Source of the DNA: a virus
Direction: 5' to 3' (one strand)
DNA: 64,000 bases
Virus record (IMG/VR): IMGVR_UViG_3300044981_000387
Coordinates: 1 to 64,000 of that record
The notes beneath the pieces were generated by a model. The model made no database searches and was not told the DNA's origin. It was given only the letters and a program-made list of their open reading frames with translations. The translations under genes and the position numbers were made by a program. Positions 28,596 through 63,078 of the stretch are shown here, piece by piece; positions within the stretch are counted from its first letter, which is position 1; the number at the start of each line of letters is the position of its first letter.

Positions 28596-29849
28596 TTATT
28601 CTCCTATTATTTTAACCGATTTAACTATGAAATCCATGGTATGTTCATCTCTAATGCGAGAGAACAAAATCTGCAAATATCCTGTTCTATTCATTTCTTG
28701 AATAACTTCATCCAATGATTTTTGTATTTTAGTTTGAGCTAGGTTCTTTTTAATAATCTCAAATACTTCTTGATCACTTAGCTGTGAATCAACTTCTTTT
28801 TCTCTAATGGCATCTAAAATCAAAGATAACTTAACATTTTTAGTAGCCATCTCCATAAACTTCTCTTTATCTGCATCAGCAATGGTGGTCCAATCTAACT
28901 GCGATTGATGGGCCAAATATCTAGCTTCAGACAACGACATCCAGTTGGGCACATTGATGGTATTATCAGCCACCAAGCGCTTAGCTACTGCATCTTGAAT
29001 GGCCATCTTGGCAGCACCTGCTACACGAGCGGTAGCCGCTAATTGTACTTGCTCACGCAATTCCACAAAATCTTTTTTTCCCATTTTAGTGGCCAATTCG
29101 TCATTAAGCGGACAAGGAGTATTTTTAGCTCCCGTTATTAAAATCACCTTGAAATGCACCGTTTTGCCAGCAATAGATGGTAAACTACCCTCTGGAACAT
29201 GAATGTCAAACTCACGAGCTTCTCCACTTAACATGCCTAACAAATTAGGATCAAAATCAGGAATCTGATTGCTGCCAATAGTGACCATTTCACCAGAGGC
29301 AGATAGATTATCTACCTTGACGCCATCAATGGAACCTTCATAATCAATAATGATATTATCACCATTTTGGACTACATCAGTATCACTATAAGGAGCCGCA
29401 TCACCTAAACGCACGCGCAATTCTTGCATCATTTGTTCGGCGACTTCATCTACCTTCGGCGTATTATGAGGTTTAACCACTTCCATATTTTGGAAAGGGG
29501 TCAACTCAAACTCTGGCTTAGTATACATCTCAAACTCACAGGTAAATTTACCGCCATCTAACAACAGAGAGTTAAACTTGGGAGCACCATGTGGGCGAAG
29601 TTTTTTCTCGAACAAAGTATTGTGAAAAGCATCTTCTGCCAAAGCTCTCTTCAAGGATTCTTCGATTTGTTGACGATAGTGCATTTTGATAGCATCCATC
29701 GGAATCGGCTTTCCAGGTCTAAACCCAGGGACCGGGGCTTTCTTAAACTGATTTTGCACCTCAGCTCTTTTGTCCATTATTTCTAAAGCATTAGCTTCAT
29801 AATGGACATTTAATTTGCATGATTCAATTTCATTAACTTCGATTTGCAT
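28596..29849 (-). CDS. tig: trigger factor chaperone
   Basis: 417 aa, near full length. The N-terminal ribosome-binding domain keeps the signature VPGFRPGKPIPMDAIKMHYR. The middle PPIase (FKBP-like) domain spans about 150-235 with VQNGDNIIIDYEGSIDGVKV then FDPNLLGMLSGEAREFDIHV. The C-terminal part is the long helical substrate cradle. Trigger factor binds uL23 at the ribosomal exit and shelters nascent chains. A complete copy in a phage would act on host ribosomes. It is followed by two small genes and an FtsH-type peptidase. Confidence 0.88.
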   Translation of the reverse strand: MQIEVNEIESCKLNVHYEANALEIMDKRAEVQNQFKKAPVPGFRPGKPIPMDAIKMHYRQQIEESLKRALAEDAFHNTLFEKKLRPHGAPKFNSLLLDGGKFTCEFEMYTKPEFELTPFQNMEVVKPHNTPKVDEVAEQMMQELRVRLGDAAPYSDTDVVQNGDNIIIDYEGSIDGVKVDNLSASGEMVTIGSNQIPDFDPNLLGMLSGEAREFDIHVPEGSLPSIAGKTVHFKVILITGAKNTPCPLNDELATKMGKKDFVELREQVQLAATARVAGAAKMAIQDAVAKRLVADNTINVPNWMSLSEARYLAHQSQLDWTTIADADKEKFMEMATKNVKLSLILDAIREKEVDSQLSDQEVFEIIKKNLAQTKIQKSLDEVIQEMNRTGYLQILFSRIRDEHTMDFIVKSVKIIGE

Positions 29850-47212: not shown

Positions 47213-47242
47213 AATTTCTCTCAATATTTTAACATACATTAA

Positions 47243-47692
47243 ATGGATACCCTACATCTCAATATCACTGATTTTTTTGAGGAACTGTTAAGTGATGTCA
47301 AATGCCATCAAGATACTCGGGCTTATATCGTCAGCATTTATGGAAAATATAAGAGCGCCCAATTCGATCTGTCTAAAGATAGCATCACTACACTGTTTGC
47401 GCAAGGGCGTGATAAACAAGATTTTTTAACTTACCAAAACTTGGGAGATTGGATCTTCTTCACCCAAACTATGGTGCCCAATCATTTACAGTGGGCTAGC
47501 AAAGATTATTACGATACAGTAGCTCGCCTTTCTTATTATTCTTGCTATAAACTTATCAATCGCCAATGGAAACTTTTTGAGGAGCTAGCCGATAATTTTT
47601 TACTTCTAGAGAGACAGGTAAAAGAAAAATTGAGCGATCTTAAAATGTCTCAAACTTCTGCGGATATCTATATCGTGCCTTTCGGTTCTTGA
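47243..47692 (+). CDS. unknown 149-aa protein
   Basis: A plus-strand gene. The product is helical and aromatic (YYDTVARLSYYSCYKLINRQ). It overlaps the convergent gene (47640-48101) by 53 bases at the 3' ends. No family is recognised and the ribosome binding site is poor. Confidence 0.55.
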   Translation: MDTLHLNITDFFEELLSDVKCHQDTRAYIVSIYGKYKSAQFDLSKDSITTLFAQGRDKQDFLTYQNLGDWIFFTQTMVPNHLQWASKDYYDTVARLSYYSCYKLINRQWKLFEELADNFLLLERQVKEKLSDLKMSQTSADIYIVPFGS

Positions 47693-48101
47693 TTTCCGGA
47701 CGATGCTCTGCCATTATAGAATTAAAAGCCCACACCGTCCTACCACAGGGACAAGATAAATATTCAGTAATATTGCCGTCATATTTGACGTCCCTGTGTT
47801 GATGTAAAGTTGGCTTATAGGATTGTTCAGGCCATCGCACAGTAAAAGCTTTCATGTTATGAAAAATGCGGGGCTGATGTCTTTTATACCAATAGCCTAC
47901 GATGTTGCTAATGTATTTCTTAAACCAATCAAAAACTTTAGAGGCTGAACGCGGATCGCTAAAATACAAAGCATGATTGACATAATAATAATCATCGGGA
48001 GGCAAACCACATTCTCTACATTTGGTTCTAGCTATAAAAGAAGAAGATAAGTTAACTCTGATCGATTTCGGTGCCCCATAAATGATTTGAGAGTTACTCA
48101 T
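47640..48101 (-). CDS. unknown zinc-knuckle protein
   Basis: 153 aa. CRECGLPPDDYYYVNH in the N-terminal third and CPCGR near residue 118 could bind zinc. The middle contains VFDWFKKYISNIVGYWYKRH. AAGGAT precedes the ATG. It overlaps the 449-aa gene by 8 bases. Function is unknown. Confidence 0.6.
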   Translation of the reverse strand: MSNSQIIYGAPKSIRVNLSSSFIARTKCRECGLPPDDYYYVNHALYFSDPRSASKVFDWFKKYISNIVGYWYKRHQPRIFHNMKAFTVRWPEQSYKPTLHQHRDVKYDGNITEYLSCPCGRTVWAFNSIMAEHRPEIKNRKARYRYPQKFETF

Positions 48102-49443: not shown

Positions 49444-50432
49444 TAGACTCCAAAATTATGACAAACTTCCGATGCTGTAATATATGCCACTTGAAATCGC
49501 TCTAGAAAACGAAAATTATCTCTAACTAAAGCATCGCCTTTACCTAATAGATTTTCGGCGCCCGTCACATCTAAAATGACCTTACTGTCTACATGGCTGG
49601 CCACACGACAAGCAATACGAGCCGGAAAATTGGCTTTAATGGCACCATTGATAATATTAACGGAAGGTCGTTGGGTGCCTAACACTAAACATATGTGAGC
49701 GGCACGGGATTTTTGTGCTAAACGACATAGTTTGTTAAAAAACTGATCTTCCTTATCTTGCATAATCAAATCAGCAAACTCATCTATAATCATCACTACA
49801 TAAGGAAGCTCTCCTGGAAGAAGACCCTCCCGCATTAAAGAATATCTTTGTTCCATCAATTCCAATAATGAATCCAATAATATAATTGTTTCATCATAAG
49901 TGTAGAAAACCTTGCTATTATGTAAACGATCTTCATAAGGACCAAACTCAATTCTCTTAGGGTCCACTAAACACACCACACAATCACTATAATTATATAG
50001 ATTAGCTATCAAATTATGCAATAAGGTGCTCTTACCAGAGCCAGTGGTGCCAGCGACAATCATATGAGGATTCAACGACAAGTCCATCCACAATCTTTTG
50101 CCATCCACCGTTTGGCCCAATAAGCATGGAAGACCACCTTCAGGCACATCTTGGTTGGTGAAATAATCCATCAACATCAAAGACTTTTCACGAGGGGAAG
50201 CGAACTCTAAACGGACCACCCCTTGTTCGTGCAACACTTTAATACTGGGACGACATGGAGTCTTGAGCGCCAAAGAAATCTCATCACCATATCGATGGAT
50301 ATCTTTAACCTTAGCGTGCGGATCTAATTTGAGATCATAGAAGAAATAGTTGTCTACTATTTGACTATTAACGCAATTAGCTTGAATATTAAATGCATGA
50401 AGAATCTTGTTAAAATGCTGAATACTTTCCAT
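49443..50432 (-). CDS. FtsK/SpoIIIE-type DNA translocase ATPase
   Basis: 329 aa. MIVAGTTGSGKSTLLHNLIA is the FtsK Walker A, VCLVDPKRIEFGPYEDRLHN matches the FtsK LIDPKxxEF block, YVVMIIDEFADLIMQ is Walker B, and CLVLGTQRPSVNIINGAIKA is the canonical ATQRPS motif with Ala-to-Gly. The N-terminal membrane part and the gamma DNA-recognition domain are absent. It probably pumps or segregates phage DNA. It is followed by a Cys-rich protein whose start coincides with its stop. Confidence 0.85.
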   Translation of the reverse strand: MESIQHFNKILHAFNIQANCVNSQIVDNYFFYDLKLDPHAKVKDIHRYGDEISLALKTPCRPSIKVLHEQGVVRLEFASPREKSLMLMDYFTNQDVPEGGLPCLLGQTVDGKRLWMDLSLNPHMIVAGTTGSGKSTLLHNLIANLYNYSDCVVCLVDPKRIEFGPYEDRLHNSKVFYTYDETIILLDSLLELMEQRYSLMREGLLPGELPYVVMIIDEFADLIMQDKEDQFFNKLCRLAQKSRAAHICLVLGTQRPSVNIINGAIKANFPARIACRVASHVDSKVILDVTGAENLLGKGDALVRDNFRFLERFQVAYITASEVCHNFGV

Positions 50433-60006: not shown

Positions 60007-60082
60007 TGGTGCCCTCAGCAAGAATTGCACCTGCGACATTCGCCTTAGGAGAGCGACGTTCTATCTGCTGAACTATGAGGGC
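60007..60082 (-). tRNA. tRNA-Arg (anticodon CCU)
   Basis: A 76-nt cloverleaf with a perfect 7-bp acceptor GCCCTCA/TGAGGGC, D arm, anticodon stem TCGCT/GGCGA with loop CTCCTAA (anticodon CCU, reads AGG), and T arm GCAGG/CTTGC. The discriminator is A and CCA is encoded. AGG is a rare Arg codon in many hosts, so it may supplement phage translation. Confidence 0.9.
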
Positions 60083-60089
60083 GTTCTAT

Positions 60090-60638
60090 TTATGCCTTAC
60101 TTTTAGTAGGAGACACGATAAGCCACATAAACTTACCTTCAAGGGAAATCTGTGGATTTGGTTGAATTAGTCCATCTAATTCTTTAACGATAAAATCTAA
60201 TTTTTCTTTACCAATATTAGAATGAGTTATTTCGCGACCCCTAAACCTAACCGTAAACTTGACCCTATTGCCATCTTCCAAAAACCCTTTAGCTTGTTCT
60301 AGCTTGTGGTTTAAGTCGTTTTCGTCAGTTGAAGGTCTAAAAGTAAGCTCCTTTAATTCCTGCACCGTTTGGTTCTTTTTGGCAGCTTGTTGCTTTTTCT
60401 TTTCTTCATATTTCATCTTGCCAAAATCGGCGATGCGACACACTGGGGGCACGGCTTTTGGATTAATTTCAATTAAATCTAGACCTTCATCTTGAGCTAG
60501 CTTGAGGGCCTCTCGGGTGCCCATGATGCCACCGTTCTTACCATCACTTAAGATAACTTGAACTTGGGGCACTCTTATATGGTGATTAATACGAGTCCTA
60601 TATTGTTGCTGTTGTTGATTATTGGCGGTGGTCTGCAT
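60090..60638 (-). CDS. infC: translation initiation factor IF-3
   Basis: 182 aa, full length. The N-terminal domain is present (TRINHHIRVPQVQVILSDGK, REALKLAQDEGLDLIEINPK, PPVCRIADFGKMKYEEKK). A Lys-rich linker follows, then the C-terminal domain (LKELTFRPSTDENDLNHKLE, VKFTVRFRGREITHSNIGKE). A short poly-Gln start (NNQQQQQYR) is unusual. It binds 30S and influences start selection and subunit splitting; a phage copy could bias initiation. It overlaps the gene upstream by 20 bases, with a tRNA directly downstream. Confidence 0.92.
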   Translation of the reverse strand: MQTTANNQQQQQYRTRINHHIRVPQVQVILSDGKNGGIMGTREALKLAQDEGLDLIEINPKAVPPVCRIADFGKMKYEEKKKQQAAKKNQTVQELKELTFRPSTDENDLNHKLEQAKGFLEDGNRVKFTVRFRGREITHSNIGKEKLDFIVKELDGLIQPNPQISLEGKFMWLIVSPTKSKA

Positions 60639-61821: not shown

Positions 61822-61896
61822 TGGAGGGCCTTCCGGGAGTTAAACCCAGCTCTGCGAGTTTAGAGTTCGCGGCACAATCGCTATACCAAAAGCCCC
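61822..61896 (-). tRNA. tRNA with CUA anticodon (amber suppressor-type)
   Basis: 75 nt including an encoded CCA. Acceptor GGGGCTT/AAGGCCC has one G-G mismatch at pair 4-69. D stem is GGTA/TGCC. Anticodon stem is GCGAA/CTCGC with A-C at the closing pair, and loop CTCTAAA, so the anticodon is CUA, which pairs with UAG. The T arm is CTGGG/CCCGG. It is consistent with a suppressor tRNA. The amino acid is not readable by eye. The discriminator is U. Confidence 0.8.
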
Positions 61897-61903
61897 TTTA
61901 TCT

Positions 61904-62116
61904 TCAGTTCAAGTTGGTAAATTGTTTAATCGGAGGGTTTTTGACTTCATCCAATGTGGGCAATTCTTCTTTATTTAATTCTGCCTCAAACTCTTGTCTT
62001 TGACGATCGGCTCTCTTCTCAAACCAATCTTCCGCAAAACGCCATACAACACCCAAAACTGCACCCGCCAATACTACCAAACCCATTAGTTCTACTAACC
62101 ACATGACTTGCCTCAA
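61904..62116 (-). CDS. small single-pass membrane protein
   Basis: 70 aa. The N-terminal TM is VELMGLVVLAGAVLGVVW, followed by a charged coiled coil (DWFEKRADRQRQEFEAELNK) and an acidic tail. It overlaps nadA by 4 bases. It could be an inner-membrane spanin-like or accessory protein; unproven. Confidence 0.55.
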   Translation of the reverse strand: MRQVMWLVELMGLVVLAGAVLGVVWRFAEDWFEKRADRQRQEFEAELNKEELPTLDEVKNPPIKQFTNLN

Positions 62117-63078
62117 CTTAATGCCATCATTCGATTGATGGACAACCTAGCACCATTCATCAATTCCTCTGACATTATTATCTGAGGATCCAAATCTCTT
62201 AAAGAGAGATATACCTTCTCCAAAGTATTCTTCTTCATGTAAGGGCACTCATTGCAAGCGCAGCTGGCTTCCGGAGGAGCTGGAATAAAAATTTTATCAG
62301 GGCAAGCTTTACGCATCTGATGTAGGATACCCGATTCTGTGGCCACAATAAACTCGGAAGCGGAACTGGATACCGCATATTTGAGTAGTCCAGTGGTGGA
62401 TGAAATATGATCTGCCATATTAAGAATGGCTTCCTCGCATTCCGGATGAGCAATAATGAGGGCTTGCGGATGTCGAGTTTTGAGAGCAATCAACTTTCTT
62501 TGACTGAAAGTCTCATGCACCACACAGGTGCCTTGCCACAAAACCATGGGAATGTCGGTCTTTTTGATAATATAGGCTCCCAGGTGCTTATCGGGAGCAA
62601 ACAGCAGTTGTGAGCCATTCTGGGCGGCATGTCTAACAATTTTTTCGGCATTGGAAGAGGTGCAAATATAATCGGATAAGGCCTTGACTTCCGCCGAACA
62701 GTTGATGTAGCTAATAACAATGGAATCGGGATATTGAGCTTTCCAATGGGCAAACTGATCGGCAGGACAACCGTCAGCTAAAGAACAGCCAGCCGTTAAG
62801 TCGGGAAGCACCACTATTTTATTGGGACTAAGAATCTTGGCGGTTTCAGCCATAAAATGGACACCGCAAAAACATATAGTGTCAGCGTTAGTAGCGGCAG
62901 CTTGTTGCGACAGTTGCAAAGAATCACCAATAAAGTCGGCTACATCTTGAATGTCGGAATCTTGATAATAATGGGCCAAGATAACGGCATTACGACTTTT
63001 CTTCAGCTTATCAATCTCTGCTTCCAAATCGAGAGAAGGATCGACATACGGCTGATTGAGAATCGGTAGATTATTCAT
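62113..63078 (-). CDS. nadA: quinolinate synthase NadA
   Basis: 321 aa, full length. Motifs: AVILAHYYQDSDIQDVADFI then GDSLQLSQ; TICFCGVHFMAETAKIL (first Fe-S Cys); PDLTAGCSLADGCPADQF; IINCSAEVKALSDYICTSSN-like substrate loop; HPECEEAI; and CACNECPYMKKNTLEKVYLSL. These supply the Cys for the 4Fe-4S cluster. It condenses iminoaspartate and DHAP to quinolinate, the second step of NAD synthesis. NadB and NadC are not in the window, so it relies on the host or on genes elsewhere. Confidence 0.93.
   Translation of the reverse strand: MNNLPILNQPYVDPSLDLEAEIDKLKKSRNAVILAHYYQDSDIQDVADFIGDSLQLSQQAAATNADTICFCGVHFMAETAKILSPNKIVVLPDLTAGCSLADGCPADQFAHWKAQYPDSIVISYINCSAEVKALSDYICTSSNAEKIVRHAAQNGSQLLFAPDKHLGAYIIKKTDIPMVLWQGTCVVHETFSQRKLIALKTRHPQALIIAHPECEEAILNMADHISSTTGLLKYAVSSSASEFIVATESGILHQMRKACPDKIFIPAPPEASCACNECPYMKKNTLEKVYLSLRDLDPQIIMSEELMNGARLSINRMMALS

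Follow-up and report, generated by a model that had tools for sequence, protein, structure and literature searches.

The window and its amber tRNA

The window, a stretch of 64,000 nucleotides, opens a linear IMG/VR contig (IMGVR_UViG_3300044981_000387) of 120,727 bases and carries, close to its end, a tRNA gene with anticodon CUA (Table 1). The initial annotation had placed a tRNA with this anticodon at the site. ARAGORN recovered it on the minus strand (61895-61822, anticodon CTA), and the Rfam tRNA model agreed, scoring it at 35.7 bits (gathering score 29) under permissive filters (fast filters miss this tRNA) and placing CUA at positions 34-36. The Rfam alignment shows an ordinary cloverleaf whose variable region has 4 bases, an acceptor stem GGGCUUU/AAGGCCC, an encoded 3' end U73-CCA and a seven-base anticodon loop CUCUAAA (C32 U33 C34 U35 A36 A37 A38). 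The anticodon stem has an A-C mismatch at 31-39 (A31-C39) and, in our own reading of the alignments, the tertiary pair G19-C56 is replaced by A19-U56.

Table 1. Features around the CUA tRNA (window coordinates)
Feature	Position	Strand	Evidence and context
tRNA CUA, predicted amber suppressor	61822..61895	-	ARAGORN; Rfam 35.7 bits; positional counterparts in relatives
tRNA-Arg (CCU)	60007..60082	-	ARAGORN; Rfam 60.8 bits; synteny; next to the CUA tRNA in most relatives
Translation initiation factor IF-3	60090..60638	-	Pfam IF3_N 97 bits, IF3_C 91 bits; orthologues in G001, G003, G004, G009, G010
Quinolinate synthase NadA	62113..63078	-	Pfam PF02445, 398 bits; adjoins the tRNA

ARAGORN labels the gene 'tRNA-Pyl'. 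We rejected a pyrrolysine tRNA, as this label merely repeats the anticodon and we found neither the tRNA-Pyl architecture nor a pyrrolysyl-tRNA synthetase: the sole strong PF01409 match in the record is a PheRS-like gene (pheS_mito, 251 bits vs a cut-off of 258). This gene, at the contig end (record 119743-120642), thus scores as the mitochondrial single-chain type slightly under cut-off, and it also matches 'PheS-related mystery ligase'. No GlnRS-like partner gene was found in the record; a gene resembling GluRS or GlnRS occurs in two relatives, G005 and G007.

The neighbourhood is related to translation, with an IF-3 gene that lies beside the amber tRNA and is also kept in relatives. The adjoining nadA served as the anchor for positional counterparts of the tRNA site. 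Its best matches, up to 67% identical, are scattered over Myxococcota, Bacteroidota and Cyanobacteria and point to no single host. Elsewhere the record encodes a DNA polymerase III alpha subunit, SbcC, NAD-dependent DNA ligase, an HslV-type peptidase, RIIA, a topoisomerase, RecA and a trigger factor. The latter, a ribosome-bound chaperone encoded here by the phage, has its N, FKBP and C domains (window 28596-29849). Two stretches of ~870-880 bases (window 47213-48093 and record 64827-65696) hold no confident gene call in a genome that is otherwise packed. Very large structural genes, a tape measure among them, are missing from the record, which looks like part of a larger genome with its late half unseen.

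A lineage of huge phages with amber tRNAs

A DNA-level search of the phage collection returned no near relatives, and the relatives used here come from DNA polymerase searches, which led to huge phages on contigs of up to 481 kb. Seven records read whole have 11 to 65 tRNAs each. For several other relatives, coverage was limited to 20-100 kb.

CUA tRNAs were found in 14 relatives (G001, G002, G003, G004, G005, G007, G009, G012, G016, G017, G020, G021, G029 and G030) and also in the more distant G040. Seven of them (G003, G004, G009, G012, G016, G020 and G021) have two each, sometimes an unlike pair in tandem. In most full records the site is the same, between tRNA-Thr and tRNA-Arg (CCU) and close to IF-3; G010 has this syntenic site with the CUA tRNA missing. 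The tRNA bodies are of several types, not close to one another, whereas 13 of the 15 CUA tRNA sequences compared have the loop CUCUAAA, that of strong suppressors. Altered loops are CCCUAAA, which lacks U33 (G005 and one of the two tRNAs of G021), UUCUAAC (G007 and the second tRNA of G016) and UUCUAAA (G030 and the other tRNA of G021). One end of the anticodon stem is mismatched in 11/15 CUA tRNAs vs 75/332 other tRNAs (p 7e-5), and the particular mismatch G27-A43 occurs in 5/15 vs 10/332 (p 2e-4), with p values that overstate independence since the CUA tRNAs are partly interrelated. G27-A43 is reported to improve readthrough of UAG (work cited in PMC13092985). The discriminator base varies among U, G and A73, so the inserted amino acid is not fixed.

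Further features of the relatives deserve mention. G003, which is rich in tRNAs, has a predicted tRNA with anticodon UUA (50073-50149), matching the stop codon UAA. The 452-kb contig of G007 bears the same tRNA-Arg gene pair at both ends, which would suit a circular genome or one with terminal repeats. Genes for a structural protein, a polymerase and a ligase (L266:10001-19947, L228:10001-15117 and L349:10001-12675) are ~0.8 to 2.8 kb longer than expected, which suggests introns or inteins.

A predicted release factor 2 in long relatives

RF2 terminates at UAA and UGA, not at UAG. A phage RF2, the search for which the initial annotation had suggested, turned up in the relatives: eight long ones (G003, G005, G006, G007, G011, G016, G021 and G023) encode a class-I release factor. 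The two tested reach 379 and 410 bits with prfB (NCBIfam; cut-off 370) and 208-249 bits with RF1 models; SPF and GGQ motifs are present in the sequences read, whose closest solved structures among PDB matches are those of RF2. By prfB score, SPF and GGQ, the relatives' factor is thus a predicted member of the RF2 family.

The 120,727-base record itself lacks RF2, which in relatives maps to the part of the genome beyond the record. RF2 was likewise not found in G022 (473 kb, 66% polymerase identity), in G020 (359 kb), or in 13 other records, almost all from more distant relatives. G010 is uninformative on this point, its contig ending ~8 kb short of the expected site, and RF2-bearing contigs from the samples of G004 and G009 are tied to those phages by sample name only. 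With the patterns used, a genome scan for the cellular origin of RF2 gave no relative.

TAG is rare as a stop codon

The absence of TAG stops, to which the initial annotation had drawn attention for about 95 genes, was confirmed for the 87 genes called here, which end in 59 TAA, 28 TGA and 0 TAG. Extending the count beyond the window, as had been proposed, TAG is still rare: the whole record has 114 TAA, 54 TGA and 3 TAG in 171 genes. Gene calls come from our own codon-score method, whose low-scoring calls are noisy; the high-scoring subset gives the same result. A count of 0/87 has a probability of 9e-5 at the 10.1% TAG of a relative without the tRNA and of 0.15 at the 2.2% of the lineage. 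The window is therefore typical of its lineage, and it is the lineage itself that is unusual.

Across relatives, the TAG share follows the state of the tRNA. It is 2.2% with the CUCUAAA tRNA (34/1581, five records pooled), 4.3% with the UUCUAAC loop (21/485, G007), 8.9% with the CCCUAAA loop (45/508, G005), 10.1% without the CUA tRNA (41/404, G010) and 19.7% in outgroup loci without either CUA tRNA or RF2 (27/137), an association that rests on few independent lineages. In paired orthologues of G010 and G003, discordant TAG stops number 19 against 0 (p 4e-6); few branches carry these shifts, and since RF2 and the tRNA co-vary and phylogeny confounds, their effects are not fully separable. The loci read in the fragments G025 and G027 have no TAG stops, yet neither CUA tRNA nor RF2 was found there. 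Composition does not explain the loss, because TAG accounts for 22-29% of the stop trinucleotides in these genomes; low-GC members have higher TAG use, not lower.

TAG is not read as sense in the genes examined

The initial annotation had stated that no gene in the window needs TAG as a sense codon, and this holds for the record, where coding coverage is 89% under the standard code. Neither in the record nor in seven relatives read to their contig ends (G001, G003, G004, G005, G007, G009 and G010; 252-481 kb) did the proposed search for reading frames opened by TAG as sense yield a gene that is full length only in this way. Five of these seven include structural genes, of up to ~2,400 residues. 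In all seven, large genes, late structural ones included, are free of in-frame TAG, and gene calling with TAG as sense brought no gain. In eight records, a homologue continued across none of the 3,134 in-frame TAGs that have open frames on either side, against 2 cases across TGA and 2 across TAA in the same test, which is blind to genes without homologues.

Genes that do end in TAG terminate at the same place as their TAA- or TGA-ending orthologues, and no conserved extensions were found behind these rare stops. TAG is a genuine but rare stop in this lineage. The NAD-dependent DNA ligase (record 115274-117979) is a case in point: it closes with two TAG codons in tandem (TAGTAG), and the following gene, for a calcineurin-like phosphoesterase, lies in the same frame. 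We considered programmed readthrough and rejected it; as the orthologues stop at the same residue with TAA or TGA, the arrangement is taken as chance.

Possible roles of the tRNA and RF2

Judged from their sequences, the CUA tRNA and the predicted RF2 are the kit of TAG recoding, present in this lineage of huge phages without recoding. Phage suppressor tRNAs and RF2 have so far mostly been explained as readers of the phage's own recoded genes. This lineage retains both tools at the cost of avoiding TAG, with nothing recoded to read, which implies that the tools are separable from recoding.

We propose that these phages take over termination, a reading to which we give an even chance. If charged and active, the CUA tRNA would decode UAG as an amino acid, and the lineage's RF2, encoded outside our record, may support it by terminating at UAA and UGA but not at UAG. 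UAG would then turn leaky or sense during infection. Phage proteins would end normally, TAG having been purged from the phage's own gene ends, whereas UAG-terminated genes of the host and of rival phages would be read through and acquire C-terminal extensions. The benefit to the phage may lie in damage to host or defence proteins; readthrough of host proteins has been raised as an anti-defence idea for recoded crAss-like phages (PMC7886860). That the lineage attacks through the genetic code, making UAG unsafe for the host and staying safe by avoiding it, all with its own code unchanged, seems to us nearly as probable as not.

The main competing explanation is that codon capture stalled midway or left a relic: suppressor tRNA and RF2 were gained and TAG was lost as a stop but has not become sense; in a variant, code 15 was once used and later lost. 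No effect on the host would then be necessary. We regard this as possible though rather doubtful. TAG-recoded phages are known to have the same parts (PMC10746230, PMC13037316), and the emergence of a suppressor ahead of recoding has been described for crAss-like phages (PMC7886860). A neutral stage, however, should gain some sense TAG, and none was found in eight records. In addition, many lineages have retained the tRNA or exchanged it for another, mostly preserving CUCUAAA, which points to present use. Alternatively, RF2 alone may account for the purge: termination at UAG would be slowed by a phage-encoded RF2 or by scarce RF1 in the host, and TAG would be selected against, leaving the tRNA to cover occasional UAG stalls or, for example, to decoy tRNA nucleases. 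Some long RF2-bearing records are indeed low in TAG with the CUA tRNA undetected (3/97 in G006), although the search in these records was pattern-based and variants can escape it; and up to 65 tRNAs per phage are consistent with replacement of host tRNAs. But G005 has RF2 and still 8.9% TAG with an altered tRNA loop, and the loop and stem features of the CUA tRNAs match those of tRNAs that read UAG, so that we hold this explanation to be unlikely.

Two further readings would have UAG decoded as sense, in the phage or in its host. The initial annotation had favoured TAG reassignment of the Lak type, with the recoded genes probably among late genes outside the window. The late half of this phage is indeed outside the record, which lacks very large structural genes, and for this phage the conclusion that nothing is recoded rests on relatives whose DNA polymerase is 71-82% identical. 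In these relatives, however, the late genes are open with TAG as a stop, no TAG is crossed by homology and none of the seven long records shows a recoded gene; as far as tested, reassignment finds no support, and sense TAG in the unseen late genes would be very surprising. A host that itself decodes UAG as sense would account for the purge together with a matching tRNA. Under such a host, phage genes would be expected to drift to sense TAG, which none do, and we know of no bacterial lineage in which UAG is generally reassigned, pyrrolysine users excepted; we consider this, too, highly improbable. Whether the tools act against the host, as termination takeover would have it, or the lineage is midway through codon capture in nature, a stage of code evolution debated but seldom observed, the relatives with a lost or altered tRNA are ready-made contrasts.

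Comparison with known systems

We found no description of such a lineage-wide kit with a stop-codon purge and no recoded genes in the open-access papers searched, which covered part of the literature on recoding. The closest parallel is with phages that have recoded TAG (code 15; Lak and crAss Beta/Delta/Zeta), which share the CUA suppressor tRNA, RF2 in some cases and the depletion of TAG as a stop. Our lineage differs from them in that no sense-TAG gene was found, with a normal coding density under the standard code and TAG still in use as a rare but real stop. The crAss-like phages in which a suppressor precedes recoding (PMC7886860) similarly combine a suppressor tRNA with no apparent recoding; that case concerns one genome and a suppressor of TAA, whereas here there are 15 carriers, RF2 and a measurable purge of TAG. 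The takeover of translation described for huge phages (PMC7162821) involves many tRNAs, synthetases, IF3 and release factors, matched here by up to 65 tRNAs, IF-3 next to the amber tRNA, a PheRS-like synthetase and RF2, although the main text of that study does not use the word 'suppressor' and links no such kit to avoidance of TAG. Finally, the laboratory amber suppressors of E. coli also have CUA in a CUCUAAA loop, and disturbed ends of the anticodon stem reportedly aid readthrough (PMC13092985); unlike them, the suppressors predicted here from sequence are natural and encoded by a phage.
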